From contig OZ038454.1 of assembly GCA_964036195.1 (NCBI GenBank), positions 3,968,001 to 4,032,000 of the forward strand: 64,000 nucleotides of DNA, written 5' to 3'. Under the pieces are notes generated by a model. The model saw only the letters and a list, made by a program, of their open reading frames with translations, was not told the DNA's origin and ran no database searches. Position numbers and translations under genes: made by a program. Shown here in pieces: positions 57 to 53,100 of this stretch. Within the stretch, counting starts at the first letter, position 1. Each line of letters starts with the position of its first letter. This stretch comes from Sphaerolaimus hirsutus. Its lineage: Eukaryota > Nematoda > Chromadorea > Monhysterida > Sphaerolaimidae.

Positions 57-3000
57 CCTTTTCTGCACGGGCACGTGAGGGGGCACGATCATCACATCCA
101 AGGGGGGACCAAACGCAACGTGACCAAAATCGACCCGAAATCGTTCGCAGTACACGCTGAGCCAAGTAATTTGGTCCACCGTGTGCGATTCGGGTAGCTC
201 GATTATTACGTCGTGCCGGCCGGAGTAGCGCTCGTTCATTGCCGTGATGCTGTGGGGGGTTGGGGTTAGGGGGTTAGAGGGGTTGTGTGGACTGTTTTTT
301 TACCCTTGATTTACTCGTACAGGTTTTTTACCCCAGTGACATTCGGGAGAGGGGTCAATTTACCGTATGTCCTCAAATAAGACCACAGGGGAGCTTTTTA
401 CGTAAGTTTTTGAGGGGGGTTATTCAAGGAGAGGAGTCACTTTTTTCATCAGAATATTCGGTACAATTAATTATCAATATATTGTATGAATCGGCTTACA
501 TTAGTTCATAGACCAGAGTGAACTTCCAGAAGTCTAGGGATGAAATCAATGCTAGTGAACGTCAATCGCAAAAAAATACAACGTTACATACATAAAACGT
601 TTTTTACATGCTATGTTCATCCACCAATCAGAGGGATTTTTTCGAGGGGTGAGTTACTTTTTCCTCACAGGGAAAACAGGGCCGACAGGGGGATTATTCA
701 AGTGGAAGTTATTCCAGGGGCCAGTTCCGCAAATTAAGAAGTGAGAAGTAAAATGGCAAATGCGAAGTGAAATGAGAAGGAAATTGGCAAAAGCGAAGGG
801 AATTACTTTTTAATTTTATTTTTTTACTTCGCTTTTGCCAATTTTATTCTCGCAATTCACTTCGCATTTGCCAGTTTACTTCTCACTTCTCAATTTGCGG
901 AACTGGCACCAGGTCACTTATTCGAGGATATACGGTATTCTATAAGAATGGTTACAAAACACACTGATCCAACGTGTCCCGGCCGCGGATGGCCGCTTTA
1001 GCGCCATTTTCGGGCTTCACGTCGCCGCTGCCCACCATGAAGTAGCCATCTGAAAATTTATGTGTTGTGAAAATTAATTAACCTTTGACGCGGCGCATAC
1101 TGCATTTTTTTTTGTGAATGGGAGATAATATGTAAATGTAAAATGTGTACATCAGGGGGCGCTTCCGAGCCCTGTAAAATATCATGTGAAATGTGAAATG
1201 TTAAGTAATGACTAGTCTTCAAAAACTCATCAAAATGTCAAACGCACAGTAATAAAATCTGATATTCTGCATAACATTTCACACAACTTTTTTACACTTT
1301 ACATGCCATTTTACAGGGTGCGGGACTTAACACTTGACCCTGACTGGCCAATTTTGGAATTGGCACCAGCAAGTTTGAATACCGTATTACCTCGAAATAC
1401 CCCCATGGGGGTTCATTTTTTCGCCAGGAAAATTCGAGGGGGGGTCTATTCGAGGTTTTTTTTTATTATTCCGCCAGAAATTTTCGTAAGGATAGTAGTA
1501 AAAATTAGGCATTTTCATACCAAAAACAGGTAATAAATGCGTCCAAACAGGATGTATTTGGACATTTAAACGTAGATTGCTACACAAACAAGTCTATGTG
1601 TATTTAGCTGCGATACAAATAAGCAGTAATAAATACATCATGTACATTGCATACATGATGTACATCATTCTGGAGGGGGGTATTTCGAGGGGGTTAATTC
1701 AAGGGGGATTAATTCGAGGTAATACGGTATACCACAGTTATGACATGGTAAATATTTACGTTTACCCGGAATACCCGGGTATAAATATGTACTTACCTTT
1801 ACGTTGTTCTAAAATATCATTATTTTAACAATTCTGATGTATACCCACAAAAAAACCCAAACCCACCGGGCGCCTTATCTCCGTCGAAAACGAATCCATA
1901 AATCTTGATCGTTTGCTTGTCCATGACCAAAATCGGACCGGAACCCACGCTGTACTCTTTTCCATTCAAAGTGCCGTTGAGAAACTGCGGCCTGGGCACG
2001 GAAACGCCGTCGGGCAAGGGCAAATGCCCGTAACTTCGGGCAAACTGGGGGGCACTCCCAGAGCCTGTAAAAGACCCTGTAAAGTGTCAAATGTCATGTA
2101 AAAGTCCATACAAAGTGTCATGTAAAAGTTCATACAAAGTGTCATGTGTATCCAAATTTTATTTTATCGTATCCAAATATTTTGTTTTTGTATCCAAATC
2201 TCACTTTTAGGCATGAGATTTCAATACAAAAACATAAGATTTGAATACGATAAAATAAGATTAGGATACATGACATTTTACTTTGACACTTTTACATGAC
2301 ATTTGACATTTTACAGAGTCTTTTACAGGGTCTGGGAGTGGCACCTGGCTGCAGTAAAGCCCGACTGATTTGAAGTCGGTCACTCGGTGGTCGTGCGGCA
2401 GGGATAGGACAACTCTGGCGTCGGAATATTTGCCCAGCGAGTGCTCCCTGGGGGGGGGGGTCAATTAGTATTGCAAAAATTTATGGGGGTTTACACTTTT
2501 TAGATGTTTTAACGGGTTTATTGAGAGAGGTTAAATTTTGTTGTTGCAGATTTTATGATATTTTGAACTTTTTCCAACTTTTTTTGTTCAAATCAGGCGA
2601 CTCCAATGTGGGGTTGCCCCACCACAAATATCGGCCAGCTATCTAAATGGGGTAAATTTTTTACGACTGCGCTAGAATCTCGGGGTAAAATAAAAAAAAC
2701 TGCAAAAGAAAAAAGAATACTAACCCAAATTCAAAAGTAGGCAATCTCACGCCGGCAGAGGTCAGCTCCTCCTTGTAATCCGCGTAAAAGTAGAGATCTG
2801 CGATGGTTTTTTATTTATTTTTATTTATTTGTAAAAAATATTATTGTGGGCCCAATTCCGCTAGTGGACAAGTGGCAAGATAAGTGATAAGTGGTAAATA
2901 AAACTGCTATATAATGTTTCAACTAAGTGGCACTATTAAACATTAAGTGGCACTTTCTGGCATTTTTGATTTTGCATTTTTTTACGAAAACGGCTTGTCA

Positions 3001-4603
3001 CTTATTTTAGGAGTTTTCAAGTTATTATACCTGACACTGATAGGTATACCACTGGGTGAAAAATACTTGCTTTTTCAACGACACTGTTTTTTAATATCCG
3101 GTTTCGATACTTGCGTTTTTTATTTAAAAAAATCTGCCATCCCTGCACTTAGGTAACTGAAATTATCAATTACCACTTTTCTTGTCAATTTTCCATTGGC
3201 GGTTCAAACATTTACCATTATTTCGAAACTATTTACATTCCACACAGTGTAAACATAGGATTGGCTGCATTACGCTAAACATCGAACCAAAAATCTAATA
3301 ATTTTATTAAGCCCGGTAAAATGCGCATGCGACTTTCGACAAATTTTGGCAACTTTTCAATCCTGCTTACCGTGGCAGAATTCTGGCTGCAGAAATGCTG
3401 CAGTCGGCAAAAAATGGCCAATAAGTATTTATCATGTCAAAATATTTACGTTTTGGCGCTGCAAACACTAGTTTACTGCCAGTAAACTAAAAATTGGGTA
3501 ACTCGTAAATCGACTTTGAATGGGACTAGAGTTTGCTGGAATTTGATGTTCGTCAACTAGTTGTTGGAGAGTAAACGAATATAGTTGACACGAACTTTGA
3601 TGTCAACTAGTGTGTGGAGGCCCTTTGAACACCCCCACAATTTTTACTCATCAGATCACAATCGCGGTAGACTTTTTATCGCACTTTCTACCACCACAAA
3701 AACTTTTGTCAAAAGTCTGCACTCAGTGGTGCCATCCCGCCAGACATCTTATTCCATTTTATGTCGAAGAAAAGTGTGCCGGGGTTCAAGGACAAAAACT
3801 TTTCATCGTGTCAAGAGCGAAATTGTAAATATGCGAGAAAGGGAAATTAAAAAGTGCCGCGTGAAAAATTTCCATTGATACGAGGATATTGAATTTTCCG
3901 TACAACTAGAGCCAATCCCGGACCGTGTAAAATAAAATGTTAAATGTCATGGAACAAAGTGTCAAATGCAGGGGCTTCGAAAGGGGGGGTTAAGGGAGGG
4001 GATTACCCCCCCCCCAAACCGCCCAGCTATCTATCTATCCCGGAGGCCGCTCAGCTATCTATCTATCACGGAGGCAAAATTTTGGGCTACTACCCCCTAA
4101 ACCCCAAACCCCAACCCCCAGAAAAATTTTCAGCTATCTATCCCTCCGGAGGAGCGATTTGCTATCTATCCAACCACTCGCAGGGTTGAAATACAAGATA
4201 CCCCTGGTAAAATGTCATGTACAATACACTGTAAAATGTCCACACAAAAAAAAACACATTTTTTGTTGGATTTTTAATATTTTATATTATTTTTGACAGC
4301 GTGTAGAGCATTCGTGGCACCTTGGCTTGAACGTCAATTACAATAAAACATTTTATAACAAACAGAAAAAAATCTGAAAAAACTCACCCGGCGCGTCAGC
4401 ATTATAGGTAAATCCAATCACTTGAAGGCAGGTATTATTCACCAGAAAAATATCTCCCTTTATGCCGACCCCCTGGGGGTCTGGCAAGCTGCCAAGTGGC
4501 ACACCGTATTCACTTTTCGGTTTCGGTTCCGATAAAACAGAATTGGTGTCTTCTATTTCGGTGGGAGTTTGCCCGGTGCCAACTGAGGCGGAAAATGCAT
4601 AGC
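57..4603 (-). CDS. Tandem DM13-domain protein (Skeletor-like), partial
   Basis: Six exons join in frame: 4388-4603, 2725-2797, 2345-2447, 1867-2044, 965-1049 and 57-249. Donor/acceptor phases agree at every junction (1, 2, 0, 1, 2). The product has two DM13 domains in tandem. The first runs from DIFLVNNTCLQVIGFTYNAD through LYFYADYKEEL and KYSDARVVLSLP to VGLYCSQFARSYGHL. The second runs from FLNGTLNG and IKIYGFVFDGDKAPDGYFMV through YSGRHDVIIELP to ITWLSVYCERFRVDFGHV. Known family facts: DM13 occurs in animal extracellular or membrane proteins such as Drosophila Skeletor, usually before a DOMON domain. No DOMON is visible, because the gene leaves the window at the left edge. The first exon seen starts in phase 1, so at least one 5' exon, probably with a signal peptide, is missing and was not found. 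The intron between 2345-2447 and 1867-2044 is an introner that splits the first DM13 domain. The donor at 2725 (gttagt) was chosen because it keeps frame and gives SAGVRLP, the usual DM13 middle. Function is inferred only: secreted or surface protein. Confidence 0.85.
361..937. mobile_element. TA-bounded foldback element, TACCGTATGTCCTC tips
   Basis: The left end TACCGTATGTCCTCAAATAA is mirrored at the right end by TTCGAGGATATACGGTA. The interior has G-rich 'ttattcaaggggg' stretches typical of this family throughout the window. It lies in the last visible intron of the DM13 gene (250-964), and a family B introner copy sits inside it at 718-909. No transposase is present, so it is non-autonomous. 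Confidence 0.7.
718..909 (-). mobile_element. Introner family B copy, not at an exon edge
   Basis: Palindromic element with GGGCCAGTTCCGC at the left and GCGGAACTGGCAC at the right, flanked by CAG on both sides (715-717 and 910-912), which fits a 3-bp target duplication. On the minus strand the GT tip is upstream. It lies inside another foldback element within an intron, so it makes no intron of its own here. Confidence 0.75.
1156..1370. mobile_element. Degenerate introner family A copy
   Basis: The left part (GGGGCGCTTCCGAGCCCTGT, then AAAAT) and right part (CATTTTACAGGGTGCGGGAC, then a second arm ending in TTGGCACCAG) match family A with divergence and an extra arm. It lies in the DM13-gene intron 1050-1866. 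The ends are approximate. Confidence 0.5.
1380..1731. mobile_element. TA-bounded foldback element, TACCGTATTACCTCGAA tips
   Basis: TACCGTATTACCTCGAAATA at the left is matched by TTCGAGGTAATACGGTA at the right, an almost perfect inverted repeat. The interior carries G-rich 'attcgaggggg' motifs. It sits in the same DM13-gene intron as the degenerate family A copy. No ORF of note. Confidence 0.75.
2045..2344 (-). mobile_element. Introner family A, forming an entire intron (300 bp)
   Basis: Removing exactly this element joins VGLYCSQ to FARSYGHLPLP and restores a standard DM13 domain in phase 0. On the minus strand the intron starts CCAG|GTGCCACTCCCAGACCCTGT and ends GGCTCTGGGAGTGCCCCCCAG|TTT. 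The element is an inverted repeat of those arms with an AT-rich centre that includes extra 'tatccaaat' units. The donor GT is the element's own tip; the acceptor AG lies in the repeated CAG. Confidence 0.9.
2849..3190. repeat. Family C-like foldback (degenerate introner relative)
   Basis: The left arm CCAATTCCGCTAGTGGACAA begins a run of 'aagtggcaag/gataagtgg' units and the right arm has 'taccacttttcttgtcaatt'. This is the interior of family C, whose exact-intron member is 49877-50195. The right tip is eroded. It lies in the DM13-gene intron 2798-4387. Confidence 0.5.
3971..4215. repeat. 'CTATCTATC' C/G-rich repeat inside a family A remnant
   Basis: A block of cccccc runs, repeated 'cagctatctatctatc' and 'ctccggagg' palindromes. 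Fuller copies lie at 10708-11258, 27411-27908 and 30236-30570. Family A arm fragments (GTGTAAAATAAAATG at about 3924; 'gtaaaatgtcatg' at about 4205) flank it, so it seems to have inserted into a family A element. The rest of the intron (about 3190-3970) shows nothing I recognise. Confidence 0.55.
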
Positions 4604-4799
4604 CTGAACAAGAAAGATAGAGTTGTTAAAAGTACCAGTTTTTTCAATGTACGCGTAAATGTTGAGTATTTCAAATTTACTTTGCTCAATTTACTAAAAT
4701 GTAATTTATCATGATTTTTTCAAAGATTTCCTAACAAATTTCAGTTTACATGTGGAAACTAATTTGCAGAGGTACTTGCCATATACACGTTATAAACAG

Positions 4800-5072
4800 G
4801 TATACTCCGCGGACCGCACGGTATGCATTTTTCTGAAGGAAACACTCCATCATGACGCAATAATAAAAAAAAATTGGTCCAAAAATAGTAAAAAATTATT
4901 TCAGGCACGAAACATCTGTTGGTAGTAAATATTTACATGTAAATACATGACTCCACCTTTTATTTTTCAGATATTTTTTTGTGAAAGTGCGCACATAAGT
5001 ATCCTGTTCATGCGTTATCAACTAAGACATAAGTAATTTTTGGCGCGTACTTTGTGGTCCGCCGAGTTTATC
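4800..5072. mobile_element. 'TATACTCSGCGGACC' foldback element
   Basis: The left tip TATACTCCGCGGACCGCA is mirrored by TGTGGTCCGCCGAGTTTA at the right. Related tips recur at about 10024, 25135-25370, 43465-45009, 54797-55058, 56960 and 62400, often followed by 'ttcctccgaaaaaatg', so this is a shared short non-autonomous family. No coding capacity. Confidence 0.65.
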
Positions 5073-6496
5073 CATAATAGAAGCAACAAAATGAGATTAA
5101 CATAAAGCTAGTTACTGACCCGCGGCGTCAATTCTCAATCGAATTTTAATTGAAAGTTTGTTAAAATTTTAATTGTGAACTCGTGCAAATGAATTGCAAA
5201 ACAATTGAATCAAGGCAACATTGGCACACTTTCAATAACTGAGAAGAATTGACCACTGAGAGCAATTTACAATTTGAAATTTGAAAGAAAATTCATTGCC
5301 TCATTCCCAAAATTTCAAAGAGTTACAAGACCTTCCAAAAATTTAAAAAAATGCAGAGACGGTCCCCCACCAAATCCCCAGTTACCACACATTCCATAAA
5401 TTCCACTAATCAATCATATTTATATTTACTACTCGTGAAAAATGTTGCAAGAAACGTTACATTTACGTTACGTTTACTGTACAGAAACAATGGAGCACAA
5501 AAGAATTTTCGAAATCAATTGACCTTCGCGTGAACTGAAGATCATAAACGACCTTGGATGCGTATTAATTCTTTGAAGATTTTGGGGTGGAAGGGTTGGT
5601 GTTTAAAAAACTATATAGGTATTGTAAAAAGACGTTTTTGACACGTTTTAAAAACAGCTTAAAGTTGAAGTTTTTATGAGGTTCAGCTAGGTTACCCACA
5701 TTCGCGTACTTGGCCGTACTTCCCCATACATGACAACACAATAGCCATAAAAAACGCTATTTGACAAGTACACCAAATGTCAACTGGTTCCCATCCCAAT
5801 TCAAAGCTTGCTGACCATAACACAGATTGTACGTAATTGTACGTGAGTACAGCTTCATTTGCAACATGAATAAACATTTCTGCATGTGAACGTCGTTCGT
5901 CGGCTCCATTGAATTAGGATCTCAACCAGTTGACGTTTGGTACCGTGGTCAACTAGTGAATGTGTGCGGGACTATCATTTTTCTAATTTTCACCCGTAAT
6001 CAAATAATGTCAAATTCGATACACAATCGAATATCGAACCGAAAATTGAACATTCAAAATCGTCAAACACGGTCAAAATTCATTCAAGGTCAAAAAAACG
6101 AACCGATGGCGGCAAAAAGGTGAGCCAATTCCAGCGTGATTGGCCGCATAATTGTCAAATAACAGCAGATAATTTATGTCAATTTGGAAAAGTGCCAAGA
6201 AGTAAAAATCGGTCACAGGATAAATTTCACAGGCAGATTCCCCGCCGGACAAAAGCGAAGTATCTCGTTGAATTTTTCTGCGAGAAATGTTGCATTTTTA
6301 GTCGCAAAAATCAAATTTCGAAAGGTGTCAAGTGAACAATACGAAATTGCCGAACATTAATTCCTACTTAATTGTGGGAAAAAGGCAATAATAAAGTGTA
6401 CTGCGAACTAGTTATACGTCACAAATTGACGCGGAAAAAACTTATGATTGACCCTCATGAAAACAAAAAGGTACAGTTTGTAAGAGCGATTTCCAT
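5073..6496. other. Stretch with no gene recognised
   Basis: AT-rich sequence. A 'gtcaactggt/accagttgac' foldback spans roughly 5755-5960 and ends in 'tcaactagtgaatgtgtgcggg'. Open frames here are short and lack splice-consistent partners. Confidence 0.5.
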
Positions 6497-7224
6497 TTTT
6501 CATCCCGTACGGTTTACATGCTCACGGTTTTCATGCCATTCTGTGTCACTTTACTAGCTGAGTGTGACACTTTACTTGCTACTCTACTGTGCCAGTTTTC
6601 ATCCAAAGTATAACACTTTACTAGCTTGAAGTATGCCACTTTTCAAGCCAAAGTTGTGTGTTTTGCTCCAATTTACTATTTTACATGAAATGTGGCATAC
6701 TGTATTTCTTCTAATAGAAGGGCATCTCCAATAGAAGGTACATAGTAAAACTGATGGAAGCGCTGATGTCAGACAGTTCCATCATTTAGTATGGTATGTA
6801 GGTAGTAAAAATTTTGATATCGTTGTTATTGTTCTTTTCAAATACTCTATGAATTGTTTCGAATGATGCTTAATAAAGACTGGTCAGTATGCCCTGTACA
6901 ATGTTGGTGACATTTGAAGAAAATGTCTGAAAAGATGACGAAAAAAATAGAAGGGCAATCTTCAATAGAAAGGTGGGTAAAAAAGTTGTTGAAAAATAGA
7001 AGGGCGCCGTTCTATTAGACGAAATACGGTATTTAGTGGCGTGTATGTGGCTTGTAAACCGTAATACTTTGGCACGTAAAGTGGTATACTCTGGCATGAA
7101 AAGTGACACATAAATTTGACATGTAAAAACATGTCTGGGGCTTGAAAACCGCACGTTTCAGCAAGTAAAACGGAGCATTTTAGATGAAAAACGTGAGCAT
7201 GTAAACCGTAAGGGATGAAAAACG
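6497..7224. mobile_element. Foldback element with a nested foldback
   Basis: Outer arms TACGGTTTACATGCTCACGG near 6508 and CGTGAGCATGTAAACCGTAA near 7190 are inverted copies. Inside, 6699-7034 is a second element with TACTGTATTTCTTCTAATAG at the left and CTATTAGACGAAATACGGTA at the right. The same inner family occurs at 39882-40249. Confidence 0.65.
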
Positions 7225-8017
7225 GAACACACTCGTTTGTAATGCGGTTTGAAAATTAAAACAAAAGACACCAAAAAATCACGATAAACAGTCAAGGAAG
7301 TGACTAAAAATTGTCCAAACAATGAAATAAATGATCATTCAAAAAGCTTCTACAGCAAGGCATTTGGCAATGTTTACACATGAGATACATGGCCACAGAT
7401 AGTGTTTTTAAAATGGCGCCAAGAAAACATCGCGCCAAAAATATTATAACACAAATTGGTGCCACTGTTAAAGAGTGCAGCGCCAAAGAAAATAGCGCCT
7501 AGGAAAAAAAACTGAAGATTTACCGTACCGTAAAGGTTACCGAAAAATGGAAGGTTTGCCGTATTACACCATTTGCGGTACGGTAAATTGTGCCACCCAC
7601 CCAGTCCCAGGCGCCATTAATCCAACGCCTACTGAATTTACTGGGTGGCCCATTTAAAAATTCCTAAATTTCCATCCAACCCAGATGGAACACCCTGTAG
7701 CAATAATCCCTTTGCACATGCAGTAAGCCGAGCAATTTTACTCGGAAGCTTCTTGCATGTGCACGCGCCACCAGGGGCCCAATTCAATGAAAATATAAGG
7801 CGCCAGACACATGAAATATTGTCTGAAAAAGCGTGATTTGGGTGCAAAATTTCATTCACTTTCGCGCTAAACACACACTCTGGTGTCAACTGGTTTTGTG
7901 GTCAATTCAGATTTTAGTTGACGTGTTGCATGCAGGACAATTTTGAATTTCGATGCGGCAACGTCGAATGTGCATTTGAACATCGTGACCCACCAACTAA
8001 ATCTCCATGGAAACCTG

Positions 8018-8186
8018 GTGCCAGTTCCGCAAATTGAGAAGTAAAATTGTAAAAGCGAAGTAAAGTGGCAAAAGCGTAGTGAAATGGCAAGAGAATTGGC
8101 AAAAGTGAAGGAAAAATAAAAAGTGAGTTCTCTTCGCTTTTGCCATTTTACTTCTCAATTCACTTCTCAATTTACGGAACTGGCCC
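8018..8186 (+). mobile_element. Introner family B copy, intergenic
   Basis: GTGCCAGTTCCGCAAATTGA at the left and ACGGAACTGGCCC plus CAG at the right, with a palindromic interior of 'gaagtgaaatggcaaaagcg' type. It has both splice-competent tips (GT donor, CCCCAG end) in plus orientation, but no flanking coding sequence was found. It sits between two 'gtcaactggt' foldback arms (about 7873-8245). Confidence 0.75.
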
Positions 8187-8289
8187 CAGCTCAGCCCAGT
8201 TGACACCTGAATCAGGTGACCTGATGTCATCGTCAACTGGTATTTGTAGCGCCTTACTCAGGTGTCAGGCGCCTTAGGTTCCAAATGAA

Positions 8290-10226: not shown

Positions 10227-10386
10227 CCCTACACACGTCAGTTGACATCGACACCAAATGTCAACTGGTTCCGTTCCCAATTCAAAGCTGGCGTTTGAAC
10301 GTCGTTCGCCGGCTCGTCAGCAACCTTTGTATCGGGATCGTCACCAGTTGACATTTGGTGTCGATGTCAACTAGCGTGTGTGGGCC
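10227..10386. mobile_element. Foldback element, CCCTACACACG / CGTGTGTGGG tips
   Basis: About 160 bp with near-perfect arms: GTTGACATCGACACCAAATG at the left and its reverse complement at the right, bounded by CCCTACACACGTCAG and CTAGCGTGTGTGGG. The tips resemble the larger elements at 22769-23006 and 39989-40228. Confidence 0.7.
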
Positions 10387-10707
10387 CAATGCAACAAAAA
10401 GCAAGCAAAATCACCAAATACGGGTGGAAAATAGCTTAAAAATAGGCATATAAATCAGCTCCAGAATCCAGATTGCAGAAAATGACAAAAAGTTTCAATG
10501 AGTGATTTTGTCTCAAAAATTTGTGGGAAAAATCATTCAAAATTTCTCGGGTCAAATCGGGTTTATATTCGGGCATTCTTCCCAGGTCTATTTGCTGGCA
10601 CCATGACTCATACAGATTTAGTGCCATATCATGATTCAGCGCAAAATGCATGTGCTGTTTGATATATTCACCGCCTTTACATAGGATCCTAACAATAAAG
10701 TCACACA

Positions 10708-11258
10708 TCCAGGGGTATCTTGAATTTTGACCCTCCGAGTGGTTGGATAGATAGCAAATCGCTCCTCCGGAGGGATAGATAGCTGAAAAATTTTCTGGGG
10801 GGGGGGGGTTGGGGGGGGTTTGGGGGGGGGGTTGTGGTGGTTCGATATATAGGCTTTTTCGGGGCATAGAAGGAAGAAAAGGGTTAAAAATCGCTAAAAG
10901 TAGGTGTAAAATAGCTCAAAATGGGTATACAAGAGCATATAGTACTTAAAATAGCTGAAAATAGGCAGTTAGACGCATGAACCAGTGATTTTGGAGGTGA
11001 AAATCTATATATAGGTATGAAAAATAGCGACTTTGAGCGAAAATTGGGGTATAGTTTCTGAAAAATCGCTCCAGATAGGTAGATAGCTGAGCGATTTGGG
11101 GGGGGGGGTTTAGGGGGTAGTAGCCCAAAATTTTGCCTCCGGGATAGATAGATAGCTGAGCGGCCTCCGGGATAGATAGATAGCTGGGCGGTTTGGGGGG
11201 GGGGGGGGGTAACCCCCCCCCCCAACCCCCCCCCCCCCCCCCATTCGAGACCCCTGCA
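10708..11258. repeat. 'CTATCTATC' repeat element, long copy
   Basis: Begins 'ccaggggtatcttgaatttt' and ends 'cattcgagacccctgcac'. It contains gatagatag units, a CTCCGGAGG palindrome and long G/C runs near 10800 and 11195-11242. The Pro/Gly-rich open frames here are artefacts of those runs. Confidence 0.65.
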
Positions 11259-15256: not shown

Positions 15257-15287
15257 ACCCACTACTCAGAGGCTTGCAAAAACTGAC

Positions 15288-15807: not shown

Positions 15808-15812
15808 AATCC

Positions 15813-40700: not shown

Positions 40701-43700
40701 TCATTTCTAAAAGCAACAACAAAAACAACAATTTTCAACATTATTACTCAAAAACATCAGCTTTTCAACCCCAACACTATAAAATTTGTTGTGTTAAAAA
40801 TTTGGATTTAAAAAACACACTGGTTCTGAACTGAAATTTGAAAACTCATAAATCAACTTTTGAGCTGACTGCAATGCTATTTCTTTTGGCTCCAGATGAT
40901 GTAGATAAAAAAAACTCATTCTGAAAAACTCAAATGCATTAAAAGCTGGATTTATGAGTATTCAAAATTTCAGTTGAAAACCAGTGTTGACATTGACATT
41001 TTCCCCCCCCCCACAAACCCCCCCCCCCCAAAAAAACAATAAACAACAACAACAACAACAAACACCTCCAGGCAGCAGCAAAACCCAGTATCAGCGCTGC
41101 CCTTTCTAATGGGGGCCTTTGGCGGCACAGGACAAAACGCTCCGGGCACACAGAATCAGGCCCAATTTCCACCATTTAGCGATCCTGGAGCATGGCTGGG
41201 TAATTTCGGCATTGGCGGGAAAACCACCTCTGGTTTGGCACGGGGGTTTCCCTCATTTGGAGGGGGGTTTGGTCGGGGGTGGGAGCAGAATCCACCTACG
41301 ATTAGGATTGTGAGGAATGATTTGGCTCAGAATAGTGGGTTTGGGGAGGTTTTTGACATTGCATTTTTATATGCGAAATAGAACTTGTGAAATATTCGTG
41401 CCGTTGTCGGCGGCAAGCAGCAGAAGTAACTTTTTGATTTGAATGTCTTTTCATGTCCCAATTTGCAATTAATTTTGCAAATACAAATACACCTAAAACT
41501 TCAGACCAAGGTCATATGACTAGCGATGTAAAAGCGCCATGGTGCTATTTTACTCTAGCGCCATAGCACTTTGCGTCTGAGTCCTGGCGCTTTTTACATC
41601 GCTCACTAGTCATGTATTTATCCCAAAAACCTACTACCAAAACATGTATTTTCCACTTTCAGATTCACCATTCAAACAAGAACTATCAATTTCACCAGTA
41701 GGCACCCAGCCAATAGTGCCGCAGTCTCAGACACCAATAATTTCTGGCAACTCAAAAAGCCAAGGGAACAAAAATGGCCCAAAAATCGACCCTGTCACTG
41801 AGCAGCTGATAATTCCCCAATCCTCCAATCCACAAGTGAAAAATGAAAATCCATTGTATTACGAGACGGAATATGGAAGTGCCCCGGTGGATTTGCGGTC
41901 CACAATTTTGACTGTGGCAAAACCGGAAGTGACCATCACCAAGCCGCCAGAAAACCTGCCAGGATTTGACCAGGTGCCACTCTCAAACCCTGTAAAATGG
42001 CCTCTAAAATGTCAAGTAACATCAAAGTATCAAAAGGCATCTAGGTAAAATGGCAGTAAAATGTAAAATGTCATGCAAAGTGTCTAAAGCCATGCAAAGT
42101 GTCTAAAGCCCTGTAAAATGCCAAATTTTCTTGTATACTTTACTGGTTGTTTGACATTATCCAGCGCGTTTAACATGACTTTTTGAAAATGCATGGCATT
42201 TTACACTTTACAGGCCATTCAACGTGACTTTTGACACTTTGAATGACATTTTACATTCTACAGGGCATTTTACAGGGTCTGTGAGTGCCCCCAGAATGGC
42301 ACAGAAACTCTGCCAGACACAGCAGAGCCATGGTTCATTGATTCAAGTGGCGAGTGGCAGCAACCAACGACACAGATCACGCCAGAAAATGGTCGGTTCG
42401 AAAATAATTTGGTTGAAATTTTGGTAGAAAATGTATTAAAATTTTGTACCTTTGTGTTATTAGTGAAACCGGAACTTCTCGAATAATGCCTCACCCTTAG
42501 ATAACACCCTATTGACCAAGACAGGAAAATGACCCCCTACCCCTGTAATGGGTGATGCTGATGGAATATCAGTTGAATGTGACCTATTTGAATTTTAATA
42601 GTTAATTAACAAAAATTATATTATAAACCTTTTTACAATCGATTAATTGTCTGATAGATTTTTCTTAAAGTACTGGTGAAAAAGTCCACCTTTTTACTGG
42701 TATAACTTCCCAGTAAAAAGATAAAAATATTCCACCCATCACAGAAGGGAAGTTATTCAAGTGGGGAGCTTTTTTTCTCACCCAGCCAGCAGGAGGGATC
42801 ATTCACGAGGGGTCTTATTCAAGGATGTCTTGTATATAGTCATTGCTAATGTCGGTTTTATTACATCACCTATGAACCCACCCATCCCCAGAATCCACCA
42901 ATCCCGAACCAAAAACGCCACAACCCGCCCCTGCCAACTTGCTGACAGGTCAGACCACCAGCCCAATACAGCCAGTCAGGCCAGCAGAAAACATCCCAGG
43001 TGCCACTCCCACACTCTGTAAAATGCCCTGTAAAATTTAAAATGTCATGCGAAGCGTCAAAAGTCATGTAAAATGGCATGGTAAATATTGGTGTTACAAA
43101 AAAGTATTCCTGGGCATTTTACATGACTTTTGACACTTTGAATGACGTTTGCTATTTTCCAGGGCATTTCACATACTTTAAACACTTTGCACGACATTTA
43201 ACATTTTCCAGGGCCTTTTACAGGGCCCGGGACTGGCCCAGTACTCAGCAACAGACTGCCAGAAACAGAGCAAGATATCCTGAGGTCAAAATGGATCCAG
43301 GGGCCACAGCCACTGGCCATTATTCCTGCCAATGTGAGGGCAAATGTGGCATTTCCTGTGATTGTGAATGATGATGGCAGAAATGGTGGTAATGGAGATT
43401 CTTGGGCGGAAAATGGATTGCTCCAAGAAAATGACACTGGAGCTGGCAGCTGGGACGATGTGAGTATACTCAGCCGACTCGATACTCTACAAGCATATAG
43501 GAGTTATGTCTTTGCTGGCAGATGGCCAGCCGAAAACTTATGAAACAACCGTGATGAAACATCCGCATGAAAGGGCGTCATGCGTCATGAAGGGCCGCAG
43601 TGCGCTTCAGTCAGACGCAGTTCACTGCACACTAGGGTGTCAAATTTCCGTTTCCGTTTTCCGTTTCCGCCTTTCCGCAGGAAAATTTTTTACCTTTCCG

Positions 43701-45616
43701 TTTTCCGTTTTCCGGCAGCTGAAAAATTTTTACCTTTCCGTTTTCCGGCAGCCGAAAAAATTTTACCTTTCCGTTTTCTGTTTTCCAGCAGCTGAATTTT
43801 TTTTACCTTTCCGTTTCCGTTTTTCCGGCCCATTTTTCCGTTTTCCGGCTGAAAACTTTTTACCTTTCCGTTTCCGTTTTACCAGGCCATTTTTCCATTT
43901 TCTGGCTCGATTTTCAGTTTTCTGGCATTTTTCCATTGTTTTTACAATCTGTATTTATCTTCAATTGGCTCATCCCATTGTGTTGTTTTTGTCTCTTGGA
44001 GCAGCATTGACAACTAGGATTTCAGGGTCAGTGAAACAGGTGCTATGAACCCAATTGGGTCATATGCTGACACCAATAATTTATTCAAGTTTTGTCTGGT
44101 TGGTGTTGTGATGCTGTCAATTTGCAATTTTGGTGTTGATATTGCCAGCATGTCCGTTTGGTGATTTTATTTCATGCCCATTACTGCGACAATTATTCCC
44201 TTTTCTAGTTGGTCATCCAAAACTTTCCGGTATTGTTCGAATAAGTTTGGATCTTTGTTGAATCTTCTTATCAGTGATTTAAACCGCACCAAGGCTTCTG
44301 CTTTTCCCGTGGGCAGGTCACTGATACTCTCTTTATACGGCCAGTCAATATAGTATTGTTTGTTGTTGTCATTGAATTTTATGCTATTTATTGTCATCTC
44401 CTCTGCAATGTTGTCATCAATTGCATAGGGGTCATCAGTGATTCCCACTGCTTCTAGACTGTGAAATTGTCATAGTGTTTATTTCCTATGGCCACTATGG
44501 CTACTTTTTGATGATTTTTTGTTGGTTCAGTTAAGCTTGAACTACAAGTGAAGTTACAGGCATGATCCATAGTTGCAGAATGTACAGTTACCACAATCAA
44601 AGCCAAACAGGCAAACCTGCATGCAGGTTTTCCTTCTGCAAATTTGTCTATTACCGTGCTAATTTCACTTTATTTTTTCTGTTTCTGTGAAAATTTTGCT
44701 TTCCGTTTTCCGTTTTCCGGCATTTCATTTTTCCGTTTTCCGTTTTCCGGCCTACAATTTTTTTTTACCTTTCCGTTTTCCGTTTTCCGTGGAGTGAAAT
44801 TTTTTTACCTTTCCGTTTTCCGTTTTCCGGCAGAAATTTTTTTTTTACCTTTCCGTTTTCCGTTTTCCATAAAGTGAAAAAAATTTACCTTTCCGTTTTC
44901 TGTTTTCCGTAAAAAAAATTTTTTGACACCCTACTGCACACTGCGTTCATGACGTAATGATGAAATGTTTCCTCCGAAAAAATGTAGGCTGTGATGTCAC
45001 CCGAGTATAAATACATTTCACCTTTTTGGATTTCGGGTAATTGAATAGTTATAATCTCAGAGAATTATCTAGAAAAAGAATCTTTCCCAGAACCAGAAAA
45101 AAATACCTATAAATAAACATTAAACAGATATTTTTCAGATTTCCTGATATTTTTGACGATCTCAAATCATGTTTCTGCGAGCGATCGTATGTCGTTCCCT
45201 TTGTAGTATAAATATTGTAGTAATTCAAACAAATACTACACACCTTAAAGAGTTACGTGTTAAGTCAGTCATACAAGTTTGTCAAATTTTATGTAAAATG
45301 TCGTAAAAGAAAACAAATTTGTCAAATGATATGCAAAACGTCAATACATTACATTTGACACTTTCCATTCACTTTACATTGCGCCCCCATATTTTGCACT
45401 AGTACTTATTTATCCAAACATTTACGATGATTAATTTAAGACAATCAACGTTTTCATTTTTTCTTCAAAATAAACACAATAAATACACATTCACAGGCAA
45501 TCCGATCAGATAACAAAAGAATATCATCATCCGCAGAAAATGGCGAAACGAACATTCCACAAGATGTTATAGATGATTTTTTAGACTGGAATCCGATTGA
45601 ATTTGACACAGTGTGA
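37759..45616 (+). CDS. Secreted Gln/Asn/Gly/Pro-rich protein, 647 aa, 11 exons
   Basis: Exons 37759-37842, 38566-38821, 39420-39591, 39676-39790, 40283-40482, 41072-41334, 41663-41973, 42295-42391, 42892-42999, 43242-43459 and 45497-45616 give 1944 nt in one frame, ending TGA. Every phase agrees. The first exon is a typical signal peptide (MTTKTACSCVLYFIFNVAYC) followed by QIFPQSQQ. The rest is low-complexity: NPLFAHIVSGFGTAM, an Arg/Asn-rich stretch, a Gly/Phe/Gln-rich centre (GAFGGTGQNAPGTQNQ, FPSFGGGFGRG) and an acidic C-terminus (DDFLDWNPIEFDTV). It has no known domain; a secreted matrix or cuticle-type protein is inference. Introns 7 and 9 are exact introners. Intron 10 holds a foldback with a BEL/Pao relic. 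The donor gtcggt after exon 8 is weak and is the least certain junction. The gene converges on the lipocalin-like gene 1.5 kb away. Confidence 0.85.
38128..38386. mobile_element. TA-bounded foldback, intact sister of the Helitron host
   Basis: TACCGTATTTCCTCGAAATA at the left, TTTCGAGGAAATACGGTA at the right, 259 bp, within intron 1 of the secreted-protein gene. It contains 'accatctacatccttatata' unbroken, which defines the empty site for the Helitron at 14778-19087. Confidence 0.85.
39882..40249. mobile_element. TACAGTATTTCTTCTAAT foldback with a nested CCTACACACAC element
   Basis: The outer tips (TACAGTATTTCTTCTAATTG; CAATAGAAGAAATACGGTA) match the inner element at 6699-7034. 39989-40228 inside it is a CCCTACACACACTAGTTTTC foldback as at 22769-23006. 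All lies in intron 4 of the secreted-protein gene. Confidence 0.7.
41521..41608. mobile_element. Short TAGCGATGTAAAAGCGCC foldback (hAT-like)
   Basis: 88 bp, TAGCGATGTAAAAGCGCC at the left and GGCGCTTTTTACATCGCTCA then CTA at the right. It is related to 33861-34107 by its tips. The flanks 'gtcatatgac' and 'gtcatgta' only partly match. It lies in intron 6 of the secreted-protein gene. Confidence 0.6.
41974..42294 (+). mobile_element. Introner family A, forming an entire intron (321 bp)
   Basis: Splices LPGFDQ to NGTETLPD in phase 0. Starts GACCAG|GTGCCACTCTCAAACC, ends CTGTGAGTGCCCCCAG|AATGGC. Long inverted arms of 'ctgtaaaatgtcatgcaaag' type fill it. The exonic CAG is repeated at its 3' end. 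Confidence 0.88.
43000..43241 (+). mobile_element. Introner family A, forming an entire intron (242 bp)
   Basis: Splices RPAENIP to VLSNRLPE in phase 1. Starts ATCCCAG|GTGCCACTCCCACACTC, ends GGCCCGGGACTGGCCCAG|TACTC. Inverted arms surround a short AT-rich centre. Confidence 0.88.
43465..45009. mobile_element. TATACTC foldback carrying 'tttccg' repeats and a retroelement relic
   Basis: The left tip TATACTCAGCCGACTCGATA begins inside the donor of intron 10 (gtgagtatact); the right end is 'cacccgagtata'. The subterminal regions 43645-43935 and 44698-44935 are arrays of 'ttaccttttccgttttccgg' units. The left part resembles 54797-55058 (TATACTCGGCAGACACGATA). Between the arrays lies the BEL/Pao fragment. 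Confidence 0.6.
44167..44478 (-). pseudogene. BEL/Pao retrotransposon polyprotein fragment
   Basis: A minus-strand frame reads HSLEAVGITDDPYAIDD at its start and LPTGKAEALVRFKSLIRRF, then a NLFEQY and QLEKGII stretch, before a stop. This matches the short conserved block before the reverse transcriptase of Pao-type elements (a GI motif, the LP...A..RF.SL..R pattern, then the Y...DQ..KGII pattern). Only about 100 codons remain; protease and reverse transcriptase are absent and a stop lies upstream. It is a relic inside intron 10 of the plus-strand gene. Confidence 0.65.
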
Positions 45617-46015
45617 TAATTTATTCAGATAATGTCACTCTGCGCACTGATTTTTGACAAGTAGAACTAAATATTTTTTTTACCTATAATTTTTTGGCTA
45701 AATACCGTATTTCCTCGAAATAAATTTTGAGGGGGTAATTTTGGGGGGTTTTAGAGGGGGATCGATATTTCGCCAGAATTTTTTGAACTCCCAGTACCAT
45801 TCCCAAAACCCGAAAATGGCTCCTGAATACCCCCCTAGCACTTAAACCGGCAGTCAATTTTTTCCTAAGAATCAAAATTTTATCACATTTTTTCCAGAAA
45901 AGAATCTTAGTAAACCTATGTAGAAATATTTACGTAGTCGATCATTTGCGGCGGGTTAAATATTCATTGCCCTAAAGTAAGGTCACAAATTAGGGCGCAG
46001 GGTGTGATTGTGATC

Positions 46016-46580
46016 AGTGTTGTAAAAAGCAGCGAGACTTTGGCGCCAAGTGCAAGCCAAAAGCGCCATGGCGGAGAGCGCCAGTGGCTCCACAGCCCAC
46101 AGCAATCATATGGCACCAGTGGGCAGTCCCAAGCCCTGTAAAGTGTAAAGTAAAGTGTCAAATGTAAAATCAAATGCAAAGTAAAGTGTCAATAAAAAAA
46201 GGTTTTTACTGAACTTTGCATGACAATTGACACTTAACTTTGCATTTGACTTTACATTTGACACTCTACTTTACACTTTACAGGGCTTGGGACTGTCACC
46301 TGGTCCTTGTCAACTCAGATTTCAGTTTCACGTGTTGCAGAGCGATCTTAAAATGCACGTGCGGCAATGTTGAAAAATGAATATTACGGCAGGTGCATTG
46401 GAAGATCGCCCTGAGACACGTGAGGCCGAAATGTGAGTTGACATAGACCAGTTGACGCATTTGTGTCAACTAGTGTGTGGAACGTCAATATGGCGCCAAC
46501 GATCACGGCGCTTGTGCCATGGCGCCAGCGTCAGGCGCCTCTGTACAGGAAGCCACGAAAAATAGCGCTTTTACATCACT
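46016..46580. mobile_element. hAT-like GGCGCC element with a nested family A copy
   Basis: Outer arms 'gtgttgtaaaaagcagcgag' and 'agcgcttttacatcactg' with 'ggcgccaagtgc' interiors. 46119-46302 is a family A foldback (GGGCAGTCCCAAGCCCTGT to AGGGCTTGGGACTGTCACCT). 46320-46470 has 'gtcaactcag...tgagttgac' arms. 46581-47119 shows no feature. Confidence 0.5.
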
Positions 46581-47119
46581 GATTGTAATTTCGACATAAT
46601 TTAATAAATATTTATTGACAGATTAAGTAAATACTGTGTAAATGAAAATACAATGGTATTTGATGACGACACATGAACGGCAAATATGAACATCGAGGAA
46701 AGGAAAGGGAATGTGAAATGTCCTGATGAAATCATGTGAAAAAATGCTAAAAAACTATAAAACGTAAAAAGGTACACGGAACACAGAACGAGCTCGAAGT
46801 TTCCTCTGCAAAGTAGATTCCGAAATTACTTAATGATCAGAAATTCTTCGATGAATCAGGAAAATATTAAAATTGGTTCGACGAAAGTTTGCACTAAGTG
46901 TGAATAGGTCAAAAATTCATAGGACATTTATTACTCGACTGAAGGATCTCTCAGGACTAGAAAATTTCAGGGAACTAAATTGCACAGGCATCGAGCGCAT
47001 TGTCTAAGATTTCTCAATTTTAATTTCAAACCAACAGTTAAATTGGCGTAATTTCAAACATCATTTTAAATATCACAGTCAAAAATCGCAGCCACATCCA
47101 CAAAAAACACATCCATCAA

Positions 47120-50100
47120 TCAATAAAACTGTTCAAAATAATCGGGCACTTGCGATCCGACACGATCACCTCCGCCGCCCTCTCCGAGCTGATCAACACT
47201 TTCCCCGGGCACGTGGCACAGCGAGGGGAAAGGCAGAACGCTAACGGGCAATAGTCTCGTTTCGTCACGAGTTCTTCTGCCGCGCGTCTTTTCGCCGATC
47301 CACTTAGCCACGTCGACATTGTCGGCACGGAAGAATCTGTCCGCGTCGCGAGCGAAAACGTGCAGGGATTTGCACTTGCGTGCACCCAATGTCTCCGTGA
47401 GGATTAGGTAGTCCCGGTTGTGAAGTAGGGTGCAGACTGGGGGGGGGTATATGGGTAGGGATGATTGCGCGAGTAGATAATGCCACAAGTTTGTAAAATG
47501 TGGAAACAAGCAGTGTGTAAAATAAGGAAACAATATTTGAAAACATTTTTAAAAATTTTATCGCAAATTCAAAAACGTCTCAAAAACAAAGGAAATACAA
47601 TGCCAACAGTGGAATTAATAAATTACCGTATTTGCTTGAATAATCCCCCTGGGGGATTATTATTTCGTCAGACTTTTTTGAGGGGGGATTATTTGGGGGG
47701 GGGGAATTATTATATCGTCAAAATGTTCAAGCATGTTTCTATCAATTCATTTTGCGAAATATGGTTTATTAACAAGATAATATGACATTTTTGTTCAAAT
47801 TGCACACAACAAGTTTATCAAATGCCTAAAGTTCATATTCAACAGAATCAGTGTCAGCGCACATTCATTCTGTAAATGTGTACACACAACATACACATGT
47901 ATTTACCTGTGTTCTGTTTTTAGTTCATATGTGGGGGGATTATTCAAGGGGGGAATTATATTTTCCTCACGTGTCTAACAGGGGGGATTATTCGAGGGGG
48001 GAATTATTCAAGGGGGGAACTATTCAAGCAAATACGGTATTTTTTTACAGAAACTTCCTGCAATTGTTTGCAGTCAAAACTGAATCTGATTTTGGAAAAT
48101 TCAAAAGACAAACATGGAAGATCGATGGCAGGCAGCCGGAGTAGAAGATTTTTGCCTCGCAGTTCCATCACACCCAGTTGCTGTAATATAATATTTTATT
48201 TCAGTATACATTCTAAAAATTTCTATTTTTGGAACACAATGTATACTGAATAAAAATAAAAACATTCCAGGTGCCAGTCCCAGACCCTGTAAAATGCAAT
48301 GTAAAATGTCAAATGTCATGCAAAGTGTCAAAAGTCATGTGAAATGCCCCGCAAAATGGCAACTAGTTCCCATTTTGTAGGGAATTTTACATGCCTTTTG
48401 ACACTTTGTGTGACATTTGACATTTTACAGGGCATTTTACAGAATCTGGTAGTGCCCCCAGCCAACCTCATGCAGACGCCGATTAGATGAATCATCTCTA
48501 AAGTGTAGAAAAGCATCGGTCAAGTTCTCGCCGCGCTTTTCCGCCGCAACTGAAAAAAGCAGAAATTCGAAAGTCGAAACGAGACAAACCGAAAAATGCT
48601 CTTTCAAAAAATAAAAATCGCGACCAAAAGAGACTACACGAACCCTGCAATCCGACGCAACTCGGCTGCAATGGGGAAACATTGACAGTAGTAATTCCAT
48701 CCTTCCCCGCACCAAGTGCACCTTCGAATTGACCCAAACTCATTAGAGTTGTGTAAATGGATCTAAGCGACTCGGGACTGCCGTAGATTTGGGTCCAGGT
48801 GCCCGACAGCTCCGACAGCGTGACGGACTGGCACTGGGCGCACGTGGAGCTGATGATGGACGGGGGCGGGGCTGGGGTGGTGATTACTCGCGCTTCCTGG
48901 GTGGTTTTGGGTTGGGGTTAGTGATTGGATTGTGAATTGGAATTGAATACATGTGCAAATCAAATGTCATGCAAAGTGAAGTGAAGTCATGAAGTTAAAT
49001 GTCATGCAAAGTGTACAAGTCATGTAAAATCCTCTGGAAAATGTCAAATGTCATGTAAAGTGTCAAATGTCATGTAAAATCCCTGGTAAATGACAAACGA
49101 TTTTGACATTTTCCAGTAAATCTTACATACTTTTGACACTTTACATGACATTTTACCGGGTCTGAAAGTGGCACCAGGTGGAGCGGGTTTTCCGCTGCCA
49201 GAAAAAAATCAAAACCCCAAAAACTCACCCTGACCAAATTATTCCTGCCCACGGCTCTATCCACAAATGGGAAACCCAACTCGTCCAAGCTGTCCACCTG
49301 CGTCTTGCCCTGCAACAAGTCGTCCAAGGGCACCGCTGGTGGCGGGGTGGGTATAGAGGCCATTTGGTGCACTCGGGGGAGCAGGAATTCCATTGGAGGG
49401 GAGGCTGGGGGGTTAATATTTGGGGTTGGGGTGGTGGGGATGTATGCATACTGTAATACTTGGAAAACTTGCAAAATCCCCTTGCAAAATCCTTGAATAA
49501 TGATGGAATGGCATTTTTCTGTCGCTATTATTTACATCACTACCCCCAAGTAAAAAAACTAGTGGAAAATAACCCCATTGTGGGCTTATTCGAGGATTGA
49601 CAGTTTTCTGATGGACACCACAAAATAACAACCAAAAACTCACAACTAAAATCGAATGGGTTTCTTGACTCTCTCTGTTGCTCCACAAATTGTGCCTGAC
49701 GCTGCCCCAGCCCATCTCGCCCTAAAGAAATGCCCTGCAATCCTTCACCCCCATTTTGCCCAAATCCAGGATTATCCTGACGATCCCTACGCACAAAGGG
49801 AAGTGCTCCCTGACCCTGAGCCCACCAGGGTTCCCCACTTCCAGGGGGGAATACACCACCGGGCTGAGTTCTGAATCTGGGGCCAATTCCTTGAGTTGAC
49901 AAGTGACTTGGAATGTGGTAAGTGACAAGTGAAATTGGATGTGGTGAGGATGTGACGGGTAATCTTGTAAGTAACATGTAAACTTGTAAGTAACATTTTA
50001 ACTTGTACATGATGGGCAAATTTGTAAATGACAAGTAATGTTGTTGTAACAAACATGTAAACCAGTAAAAGGCAAATAAATTTGTGAGTGAAAGTACTTG

Positions 50101-53100
50101 TACCTTATCAGTTTACCTTCACTTGATTTTCCACTTACAAAATCCCATACTACTTACCACTTGTCTTATCACTTGTACACTCACGAAATTGGCACCTGCT
50201 TATTGACACATCCCCAGCAGATTGAGGCCTAAATTGCTGCGAAAATGAATTTTGTTGGGCTTCCAATTGCTGAGCTGCCCTTTGCTGGGCAAATGGTGAC
50301 TGCGGCGCATTGATTCCAGTGTTTATCTGTTGCTGCTGCTGCGCCAGCTGGGGACAATCCCAGACCCTGTAAAATGCCCTGTAAAATGTAAAATGTCATG
50401 TAAATCTCCCTGAAAATTGTAAAATGTCATGCAAAGTGTCCAAAGTCATTTTGAATGCCCTGGTAAATGGCAAACGTTGCGGAATTGTTATGAACATTAT
50501 TTTTAATACTTTGCAGGACATTTGACATTTTTCAGGGCACTTTACATGACATTTTACATGACATTTGACGTTTCACAATGCATTTTACAGGGTCTGGGAG
50601 TGGCACCTGGTTCGCTCGCTGCGAAAACGGCGTTTGCCCGGTAATCAGCCCGGACTGCAGGGCAGTAGGGTTTTGTAGGGCAAATGTACTCCGCCCTGTA
50701 GCGCCGTTTTGACGCTCAAATCGCAGATCATTTCCCACTGGAGAATTGGCGGCACTGTTTTCATCGGACGCCTGGACGAAACTGGATTGTGAATTCGCAA
50801 TCGAACTGGGGGCATTCCCAGACACCGTAAAAGCCCTGTAAAATGTCAAATGTCATGCAAAGTGTCAAAAGTCATGTAAAATGCCGTTTGCAGGGCATTT
50901 TACATGACTTTTCACACTTTACATGACATTTGACGTTTTACAGGTCTTTTACAGGGTCTGGGACTGGCACCTGAGCGGAAGGCCGCCGAAACGAGTCACG
51001 GCGGGTCGGGCAGCGTCCGATTGGGTCCGACGCAGTACGGCCGCTGCCGTTTCGTCACCGGCACCGGCGCGCTGTGCTAGTTGGTTCCGCAGAGCTGACA
51101 GCTCTCGCTGAGCCTGGGGTATTGAGGGGGAGTTATTCAAGGGGGAATTTTTTCATTAGAATTTATATATAGGTACACTATCACATACATGATTTGTAAC
51201 TTAAATGGCTAACTAATTTTACAGCGTAAATTTTTTAACAAAGACAATAGATAACCTTCGTTTTTTAACGTTTAAAAAAACACTTTTCTTTTTAAAACGA
51301 GAGTAATGTGAACATGGGTGAAAAGGTATGATGTTAGCGATTATGAGCAAAAATTTGGATAAAATTTCTCAAAAATCGCTTCATAGACAGTTGGGCGATT
51401 TTGGAGGAGGGGTCAAGAAATAGTAGGCAACAATTTTGCCTAGGGATAGACAAATATTTAGCTAGTTGACCGTCTCTCGGGATAGATAGTGGAGAAAATG
51501 GGGGGGACGTTCCCTACAGCTACAAGTCTCTACAACTCACCGTAGGTCCAATAGAATACTCGTCCCCACCCCCATCCGGGAACACTTTAGTACCCGGCGC
51601 CGCAAACGGGTACACATAATTCGAAGGTAAATCTGTGCGTCCATTCAAACCGGATCCAGTGGGAAACAGGGTTCCCTGTAGATTTTGATTATTCAAAAAA
51701 GAACCGGATTGAGGTTGTCTTGGCGGCCTGCCAAGTTGTCTGGTGTCACCGAAGGAAAGCAGCTCCTGTGTGGTTTTGTTTGAATTTTGGGAGGAATTAG
51801 GGTTTATGGGTAGTGATGGGATTGTGTTTTTTGTGCATGTTGCTATTTTCTGAAATGGCTGATATTTCCAATAGTCAAGTTCCAATGATTTAGGTCCATA
51901 TTTTCCATATTTGGACTAGGTTAAGAGCTAAATTTTCACAGACAATGGCAAAAAGCTGACGGCTTGCTGTTTTAAAAAGTGAACTTATAATTGAGAAGTG
52001 AATTTCTTGATGAGTATGAAATTTGACACTTTACTTTACTTCCTCATTCAACCCCCCATACGCCCCACCCCCCTCCCCTCAAACCAACCCTAGGCTGTTG
52101 TTGCAGCAACTGTTGTGCACCGGCGCCATTGGCCCCACGAAGGACTTCGCCAGTGAACGGGTCAGTTCTGACCAATTGCTGAGCCAATTGAGACACCCCA
52201 TTTTGTCCGCTCAGACCATTTTGTCCTGCACCTGGGGCCAGTTCCGCTTAAGTGGAGAAAAGGAACCATTTGAGAATTTGAGAAGTGAAATGACAAGTGA
52301 AGTGAGAAGTGAAATGACAAGTGAAATGACAAGTGAAATGACAAGTGAAATAACAAGTGAAATGGCAAGTAAAGTAGTGAGAAGTTAAAAAGGAAGTAAA
52401 ATGAGAAGTGAAATGAGAAGTGAAAAGTATGAACACTTCGCTTTTAACTTTTAACTTCTCATTTCACTTCTCACTTCTCATTTGAATGGCCATTTCATAT
52501 CTCATTACACTTCTTATTTCACTTCTCTCTCTTTTTCACTTCTCGCTCTTTTTCACTTCTCGCTCTTTTTCACTTCTCACTTCTCATTTACTTCTCACTT
52601 CTCAAATGGTTCCCTACTTCTCCATTTAATCGGAACTGGCACCTGGTTCCGACGGAAAAAATGAGTCGATCAAGCTGCCGGCCAAATTCGATAAAATCGG
52701 GTTCAATGTCAATGGAGGTTGAGTTGTCGGCGCCGGGGTCGTTGTGGTCGTGGGTTGGAGCAAATCTTTTAGATCTGGGGCGGGTTTTAATTTGCCCGAT
52801 CGGTTTTTTTGTCGGGCAGCCCGATTTTTTGGGTTGGGAAGTTATGAGGTGCCCCGATTCAATGTGGGTCTATTTTTTGGCGGTTTAGCTCCAAAAATGC
52901 CGTTTAATTTTGTGTCACAACTTTACATTTTGCTCGATGTGGTAAATACGATGGAAAGTGTGCCACCTACTTCCAGACCCTGTAAAATGTCAAATGTTAT
53001 GCAAAGTGTCAAATGTCAAGTAAGATGCGATGGAAAATGACAAACTTCGTTTTAACGACAAAACATTTACAGGGCTTTTTCATGGGGGCAGTCCCAACTC

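Follow-up and report, generated by a model that had tools for sequence, protein, structure and literature searches.

The window analysed here is a 64,000-nt stretch of the genome of the nematode Sphaerolaimus hirsutus (GCA_964036195.1, contig OZ038454.1, positions 3,968,001 to 4,032,000), in which the coding sequence of three genes is broken at seven places by short palindromic elements. Each element appears to be an entire intron of the kind known as an introner, an intron made by a transposon. The gene strand is minus for the element at 2045-2344, which lies in a gene with a DM13 domain, and for the four elements between 49877 and 52642, and plus for the two elements at 41974-42294 and 43000-43241. 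The seven putative introns are as follows.

2045..2344, minus strand: introner-type intron in the DM13 gene, 300 nt, phase 0, CAG/CAG duplication
41974..42294, plus strand: introner-type intron, 321 nt, phase 0, CAG/CAG
43000..43241, plus strand: introner-type intron, 242 nt, phase 1, CAG/CAG
49877..50195, minus strand: introner-type intron of another subfamily (GTGCCAATTTC..GGAATTGGCCCCAG), 319 nt, phase 2
50348..50606, minus strand: introner-type intron, 259 nt, phase 0
50806..50970, minus strand: introner-type intron, 165 nt, phase 2, with the last internal TTTTACAG lost to TTTTACGG
52232..52642, minus strand: introner-type intron of the TTCCG subfamily, 411 nt, phase 1

A sequence-only reading of this DNA had given coordinates for the seven introns and had placed the ends of a palindromic repeat at their edges; the coordinates are exact to the base in all seven, and the repeat ends coincide with the breaks in coding sequence at every site. 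The preceding exon ends in CAG, and the element starts with GTGCCA and ends with CAG on the gene strand (7/7). Lengths range from 165 to 411 nt and are a multiple of 3 in four of the seven. That reading had also held that removal restores the frame in phases 0, 1 and 2, and after exact excision at least one frame is indeed open on both sides at all seven sites. We took phases 0, 0, 1, 2, 0, 2 and 1, in coordinate order. An alternative second phase is open as well at 2045, 43000, 50348, 50806 and 52232; codon scores, from a set that did not include 52232, favour the chosen phases, but the codon table was trained partly on window exons, so that this support is not independent. The spliced gene around 2045-2344 matches DM13 (PF10517, E = 4.8e-08) across the junction, in agreement with the intact domain that had been claimed for it. 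The other two window genes had no Pfam match, and we read them by frame and codon use. A paralogous region at 4.766 Mb of contig C6 carries, at the corresponding site, a copy 97% identical to the element at 2045-2344. This duplicated DM13 gene region extends over window positions 1-5613 and C6:4761600-4768152, with 89-97% identity in pieces, and retains the element at the same position.

The elements belong to a family that is abundant throughout the genome. Their ends read 5' GTGCCA[N]TYCC... and 3' ...GGRA[N]TGSCCC, and their length is about 120-411 nt. The 30-nt 5' end CCAGGTGCCASTCCCRGACCCTGTAAAATG has 370 exact copies genome-wide as against none for its reversed control, which excludes chance. 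When the three preceding bases were left nearly free, 1,276 perfect 5' ends were found genome-wide; the 3' end with a nearly free triplet gave 1,027 matches, and a second subfamily (GTGCCAGTTCCGC) accounted for 212 exact 5' ends following CAG. Allowing up to three mismatches, we counted 18,724 repeat ends, with none for a reversed control, a number that covers both ends of the element because the other end differs from the pattern at two places, and this suggests an element number of the order of 9,000. Sampled copies are designated below by L with a number. The elements are short, have inverted terminal repeats, form hairpins and are present in many copies, and they are best explained as non-autonomous inverted-repeat DNA transposons (miniature inverted-repeat transposable elements, MITEs).

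We examined the triplets flanking the elements. At the 5' side, in the first 100 of the 1,276 places, all on contig C1 and found with a pattern that excludes G as first base, the triplets were CAG 42, CTG 37, TAG 8, CGG 6, CCG 3 and others 4. At the 3' side, in the first 100 matches to a pattern that sets the third base as G and the first as not G, they were CAG 50, CTG 35 and others 15. The dominance of CAG and CTG in the flanks is what a target, rather than element sequence, should give, and that both are frequent fits a CWG target open to insertion on either strand, since the two are reverse complements of each other. The paired flanks agree with a duplication. Among copies picked by a 5' CCAG, CAG follows the element directly in 16 of 20 (the misses are L029, L034, L037 and L046; L034 has CAG one base further on, and L037 and L046 lack a well-placed end), compared with 2 of 10 copies picked by a 5' CTG (Fisher P = 0.004), in which the 3' triplet is CTG in seven and ATG in the remaining one. 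Both copies examined with a 5' CCG have a 3' CAG. A 3-bp CWG target-site duplication flanks the elements, with exceptions. A duplication of 2 or 4 bp, or none, was considered at first because the flanks were mixed in the initial 30 copies; pairing the flanks gave 3 bp of CWG.

These features suggest how an intron could arise. The element inserts mainly at CAG or CTG and, with exceptions, duplicates those 3 bp. A sense landing at CAG in an exon would give exon-CAG|GTGCCA...CCCCCAG|-exon, in which GT, as 5' splice site, would come with the element, and the second CAG, produced by the duplication, would serve as the 3' splice site. Splicing, which we predict from the observed target, duplication and frame, would then restore the original message exactly. 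The RNA would be a long hairpin that brings both ends together. In folds of the seven window elements pairing begins no more than 4 nt from the 5' end in all cases; the fold energies are -0.27 to -0.63 kcal/mol per nt, while 60 random 300-mers of the window average -0.24 kcal/mol per nt and reach -0.455 at the lowest, so that only the elements at 2045 and 50806 lie beyond the random range.

The duplication also bears on the affiliation of the elements. Tc1/mariner requires a TA duplication and was rejected, the flanks here being CWG. According to extracts of Han 2015 (PMC4482050), CWG duplications are the defining mark of NuwaI within the PHIS (PIF-Harbinger) superfamily, a group that occurs in animals only and has repeats that usually start with GGG. 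The elements share the 3-bp CWG duplication with this group; their right end, read inward, is GGGGCA or GGGGCC, whereas their left end is GTGCCA. From these sequence features, affiliation with NuwaI is likely. The transposase domain DDE_Tnp_4 has at least 163 matches genome-wide (150 of 306 candidates scored). Most of these matches hold four TGA codons, and we considered a recoded transposase, but the coding frame is in fact interrupted by introns. One Harbinger-type transposase family (L048-L050, at C2:10034800, C15:6822500 and C47:87000) is at least 4.2 kb long and has ends unlike those of the introners; its copies are 98.6-99.4% identical where compared and it has more than 100 similar matches genome-wide, as for a recently active DNA transposon. 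A further Harbinger-like gene (L052) apparently contains an introner-type element at about 3878-4072, with CTG at its 5' side and CAG at its 3' side.

Copies of the element were also found inside conserved genes outside the window. In L047, a carnitine octanoyltransferase (1xmc, E = 5.6e-15; PF00755) continues across the junction without a gap, and in L042 an NSUN6 homologue (9imb, E = 5.4e-07) has five residues before the junction; both elements are in sense orientation with CAG/CAG. L071 (CHGN, PF05679, 4.3e-16; chondroitin sulfate synthase 2, 9q8z, 1.4e-07) is in sense with CTG/CAG. Four copies within conserved domains are CTG/CTG, all in sense: L066 in Oscp1 (PF10188, 5.8e-17), where 40 residues align on 40 positions and a PDB search with the peptide gave no match; L072 in Xan_ur_permease (PF00860, 1.4e-14); and L073 and L020 in Srx (PF10328, 4e-06 and 6.7e-07). 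The domain spans the junction in all seven of these loci and in the DM13 gene of the window. By eye, L041 looked sirtuin-like and L045 START-domain-like, and Pfam confirmed neither. Thus several introns, with boundaries predicted from the coding frame, appear alike up to both of those boundaries: the seven in the window, and L042, L047 and L071 in unrelated genes.

We then looked for empty sites by searching the joined flanks of 13 of 16 loci against the genome at an E of 1e-10, calling such sites from match coordinates and lengths. The L069 locus (zinc-finger-like by eye, C1:7491570) has 28 further matches, 80-86% identical, at C1:7.06-7.75 Mb. Of these, 24 run past the junction (query base 990) to base 1003 or further; three end at 993-994, and one (C1:7486480) ends at 988 and does not cross. 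Genomic and query lengths differ by no more than 4 bases, so these paralogues lack the element. Many of the matches end at base 1009, directly after a CAG|GT in the query, and a separate intron may begin there in the paralogues. For L020, two paralogues on C2 cross the junction at 81% and 77% identity, extending 88 and 110 bases past it with equal lengths. Both of these copies are of the CTG type. For the other 11 of the 13 loci no empty site was found; apart from L073, they matched their own locus only. A self-search of joined flanks among the sampled loci gave nothing clear. The empty sites in paralogues indicate that some insertions are recent. The sequence-only reading had gone further, to an active or recently active intron-generating system; recency holds at least in part, from the empty sites at two loci, and the splicing within that claim is still a prediction.

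Its proposal that elements made these introns is supported by the unrelated conserved genes that are interrupted, the 3-bp duplication and the paralogues without the element, which together argue for creation by insertion and not for invasion of old introns. An origin of the latter kind, in which repeats entered pre-existing introns and grew to fill them, is in our view extremely improbable. Related copies do occur outside coding sequence too, as they might under that course, but the element ends coincide with coding breaks throughout the window set and within conserved domains elsewhere, two insertions have empty counterparts, and the 3-bp duplication encloses the entire intron. We place at roughly 0.84 the probability that a MITE family with CWG as its main target gave rise to introns in this nematode, some of them of recent date.

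Around the L069 locus, a zinc-finger-like coding segment recurs in a cluster at C1:7063123-7746438, with at least 28 copies besides the element-bearing one at 7491570. A second copy of the L073 sequence lies about 16 kb from the first and also carries an insertion at that position.

The orientation of the copies provides a further line of evidence. Before counting we left out L031 (a duplicate of L030), the L012 element (a duplicate of that at 2045-2344), and L038 and L054 (strand undecided). With both strands scored for codon use, and with strand called at a score of at least 8 on one strand and 1.5 times the other, a cut chosen after seeing the scores, the held-out loci gave eight sense copies (L019 at 1076, L030, L036, L039, L043, L067, L068 and L069) and one antisense copy (L060; P = 0.04). 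By homology, seven copies are sense (L020, L042, L047, L066, L071, L072 and L073) and one is antisense (L040). The early homology searches used almost only sense frames and hence favour sense; antisense frames were then searched. The antisense frame is open for 40 nt on both sides in 31 of 34 loci picked by their ends, and the antisense search took most of these, excluding L031, L069 (searched separately) and some frames of L046, L068, L071 and L072; its single match was L040. The sense bias points to an RNA-level process with a required 5' end, to which antisense exceptions may exist.

If that process required AG, copies at CTG should be scarce in exons. In 14 of 20 CAG copies, judged on 100-nt flanks, and in 7 of 10 CTG copies, judged on flanks of 50-60 nt, the surrounding DNA resembles exons (at least 49% G+C on both sides, compared with a window average of 39%). 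A CTG target would leave GT...CTG|, and, with sense exonic copies of this type in existence, either a TG acceptor or internal sites would have to be used. Internal splicing would pair a GC donor two bases in (GT|GCCAGT) with a TTTTACAG acceptor 19 nt before the end, retaining 21 nt (7 codons) whatever the target triplet. This pair is present and in frame in all eight CTG/CTG copies checked and in most perfect copies, there is one stop only across three phases of seven copies, and it would account for the roughly equal share of CTG and CAG targets in exon-like DNA. However, it fails in five of the seven window introns (2045, 43000, 49877, 50806 and 52232) and in L042, L043 and L044, where the acceptor is lost or out of register; no single internal pair fits all copies (those that fail have other in-frame combinations), whereas the element ends fit 29/29 compared; and it would insert seven extra residues into conserved domains. 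We therefore regard internal splicing as unlikely.

Alternatively, many exonic copies, those at CTG above all, might not be spliced and might represent young disabling alleles or lie in dead gene copies. L069 and L020 are in multigene families that could afford a dead copy; on the other hand, the Oscp1 locus L066 has no second copy in the genome at an E of 1e-10, and a sense bias is unexpected for unspliced insertions. We give this only a modest chance, a little above that of internal splicing. Tentatively, and at somewhat less than even odds, we suggest that CAG targets yield GT-AG introns and CTG targets natural GT-TG introns, both exactly spliced, with the hairpin joining the ends and AG not demanded. 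GT-TG introns are plausible because Caenorhabditis elegans is reported not to need AG acceptors: AG-independent 3' splice sites were found there by mutation (Aroian 1993; Zhang and Blumenthal 1996, as told in extracts of PMC10946897). In that account too a nematode spliceosome accepts non-AG 3' ends, but the C. elegans cases are point mutants (G to A or C), whereas here a natural class of introns would be involved. If true, one animal genome would contain hundreds of GT-TG introns.

Several observations weigh against the view that MITE insertion made these introns. The splice junctions are predicted from target, duplication and frame. The homology searches used sequence from which the element and one triplet had already been removed, and they demonstrate the site, not the splice. 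Exonic status was assigned to most sampled copies by G+C content or codon use; the codon model misjudges the strand of L042, which is known by homology, and only seven of the 10 held-out loci have matching codon frames upstream and downstream (P = 0.02). Of the CTG held-out loci that pass the score cut, frames agree in two of four (L068 and L069, not L067 and L070); they also agree in L072 and L073, with scores below the cut. The flanking duplications do not always match, and a fair share of pairs are mismatched. No autonomous partner with the element ends was found among six DDE loci of about three families, and the families inspected begin GGCCCCACAC or end GGGGCC, not GTGCCA. Two copies look antisense. 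At L040 (C1:9064477-9065676), a GDT1 domain (PF01169, E = 1.3e-08) on the opposite strand starts 26 residues past the junction; the element lies either within the exon in antisense, with GG..TG as its ends, or just upstream of the exon. At L060 (C1:5513721-5514140; 5' CCG, 3' CAG), codon use points to a gene antisense to the element; by eye the sense frame resembles a membrane protein, and neither frame had a Pfam match. Antisense copies would suit a ciliate-like somatic removal of the DNA, to which splice signals would be irrelevant, as would the similar exon-like shares of CTG and CAG copies. But strand should not matter to DNA excision, yet the bias is 8 to 1 by codon use and 7 to 1 by homology, and we consider somatic removal very unlikely.

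Introners as such are already known; what is new here is their occurrence in a nematode together with CWG duplications. In the extracts of Gozashti 2022 (PMC9860276) on which we draw, introners form families whose members resemble one another up to both splice sites, and most are compatible with DNA transposition; they were found in two animal groups in all, of which copepods are named, and among those with duplications there are cases, in Chrysochromulina, of an element that supplies its own 5' splice site but co-opts the 3' one. The elements described here would likewise reach both splice sites, carry the 5' site and co-opt the 3' site. They differ from the introners of those extracts in their nematode host, the CWG duplication, the end-to-end hairpins and the many copies that would leave a 3' TG. 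In the copepod Eurytemora affinis, recently gained introns that break the GT-AG rule have odd donors (GA, GG) and acceptors near the usual, as extracted from PMC5714493, whereas the elements described here have GT as donor and would have TG as acceptor. For the non-canonical introns of tunicates, extracts of PMC13326754 mention weak-site introners among the possible sources of divergence. Among the titles and abstract openings listed in a limited search of PMC there was no report of nematode introners; a later and larger survey could include nematodes. A survey of 104 nematodes counted more intron losses (4,070) than gains (2,291), and its extracts (PMC9169325) suggest that source sequences were possibly not seen. 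The origin of animal introns is an old question, and in this genome the source can be seen, is abundant and is young enough that some paralogues still have the empty site. A target that is either CAG or CTG also provides a natural experiment, with many replicates, on the weight of the 3' AG in splicing.

Related copies elsewhere in the window had been noted from the sequence, and we found six more elements.

715..909, minus strand: related element outside coding frames, CTG/CTG
8018..8189, plus strand: related element of the TTCCGC subfamily, without coding context, 5' CTG, 3' CAG
46117..46299, minus strand: related element, coding context unclear, 5' CAG, 3' CTG
48271..48461, plus strand: related element, no convincing open frame across it, CAG/CAG
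55106..55329, minus strand: related element, 5' CTG, 3' GTG
63807..63980, minus strand: related element, 5' CTG, 3' ATG

Window positions 44014-44669 contain open frames that by eye resemble a fragment of a Bel/Pao-type polyprotein, one of which had no Pfam match. The assembly comprises 348 Mb in 762 contigs, at least 11 of which are longer than 23 Mb. As nematode markers, the genome has 56 Col_cuticle_N matches and Srx chemoreceptors; Chitin_bind_4, sought because copepods have introners and an arthropod host was therefore considered, had no match in the genome, a weak negative as the control genomes gave none either. The mitochondrial contig C762 (14,754 bp, 17% G+C) has genes on both strands, with TGA as tryptophan and no atp8 seen. 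It also carries about 1.6 kb of nested tandem repeats with 11% G+C, at C762:3990-5620.

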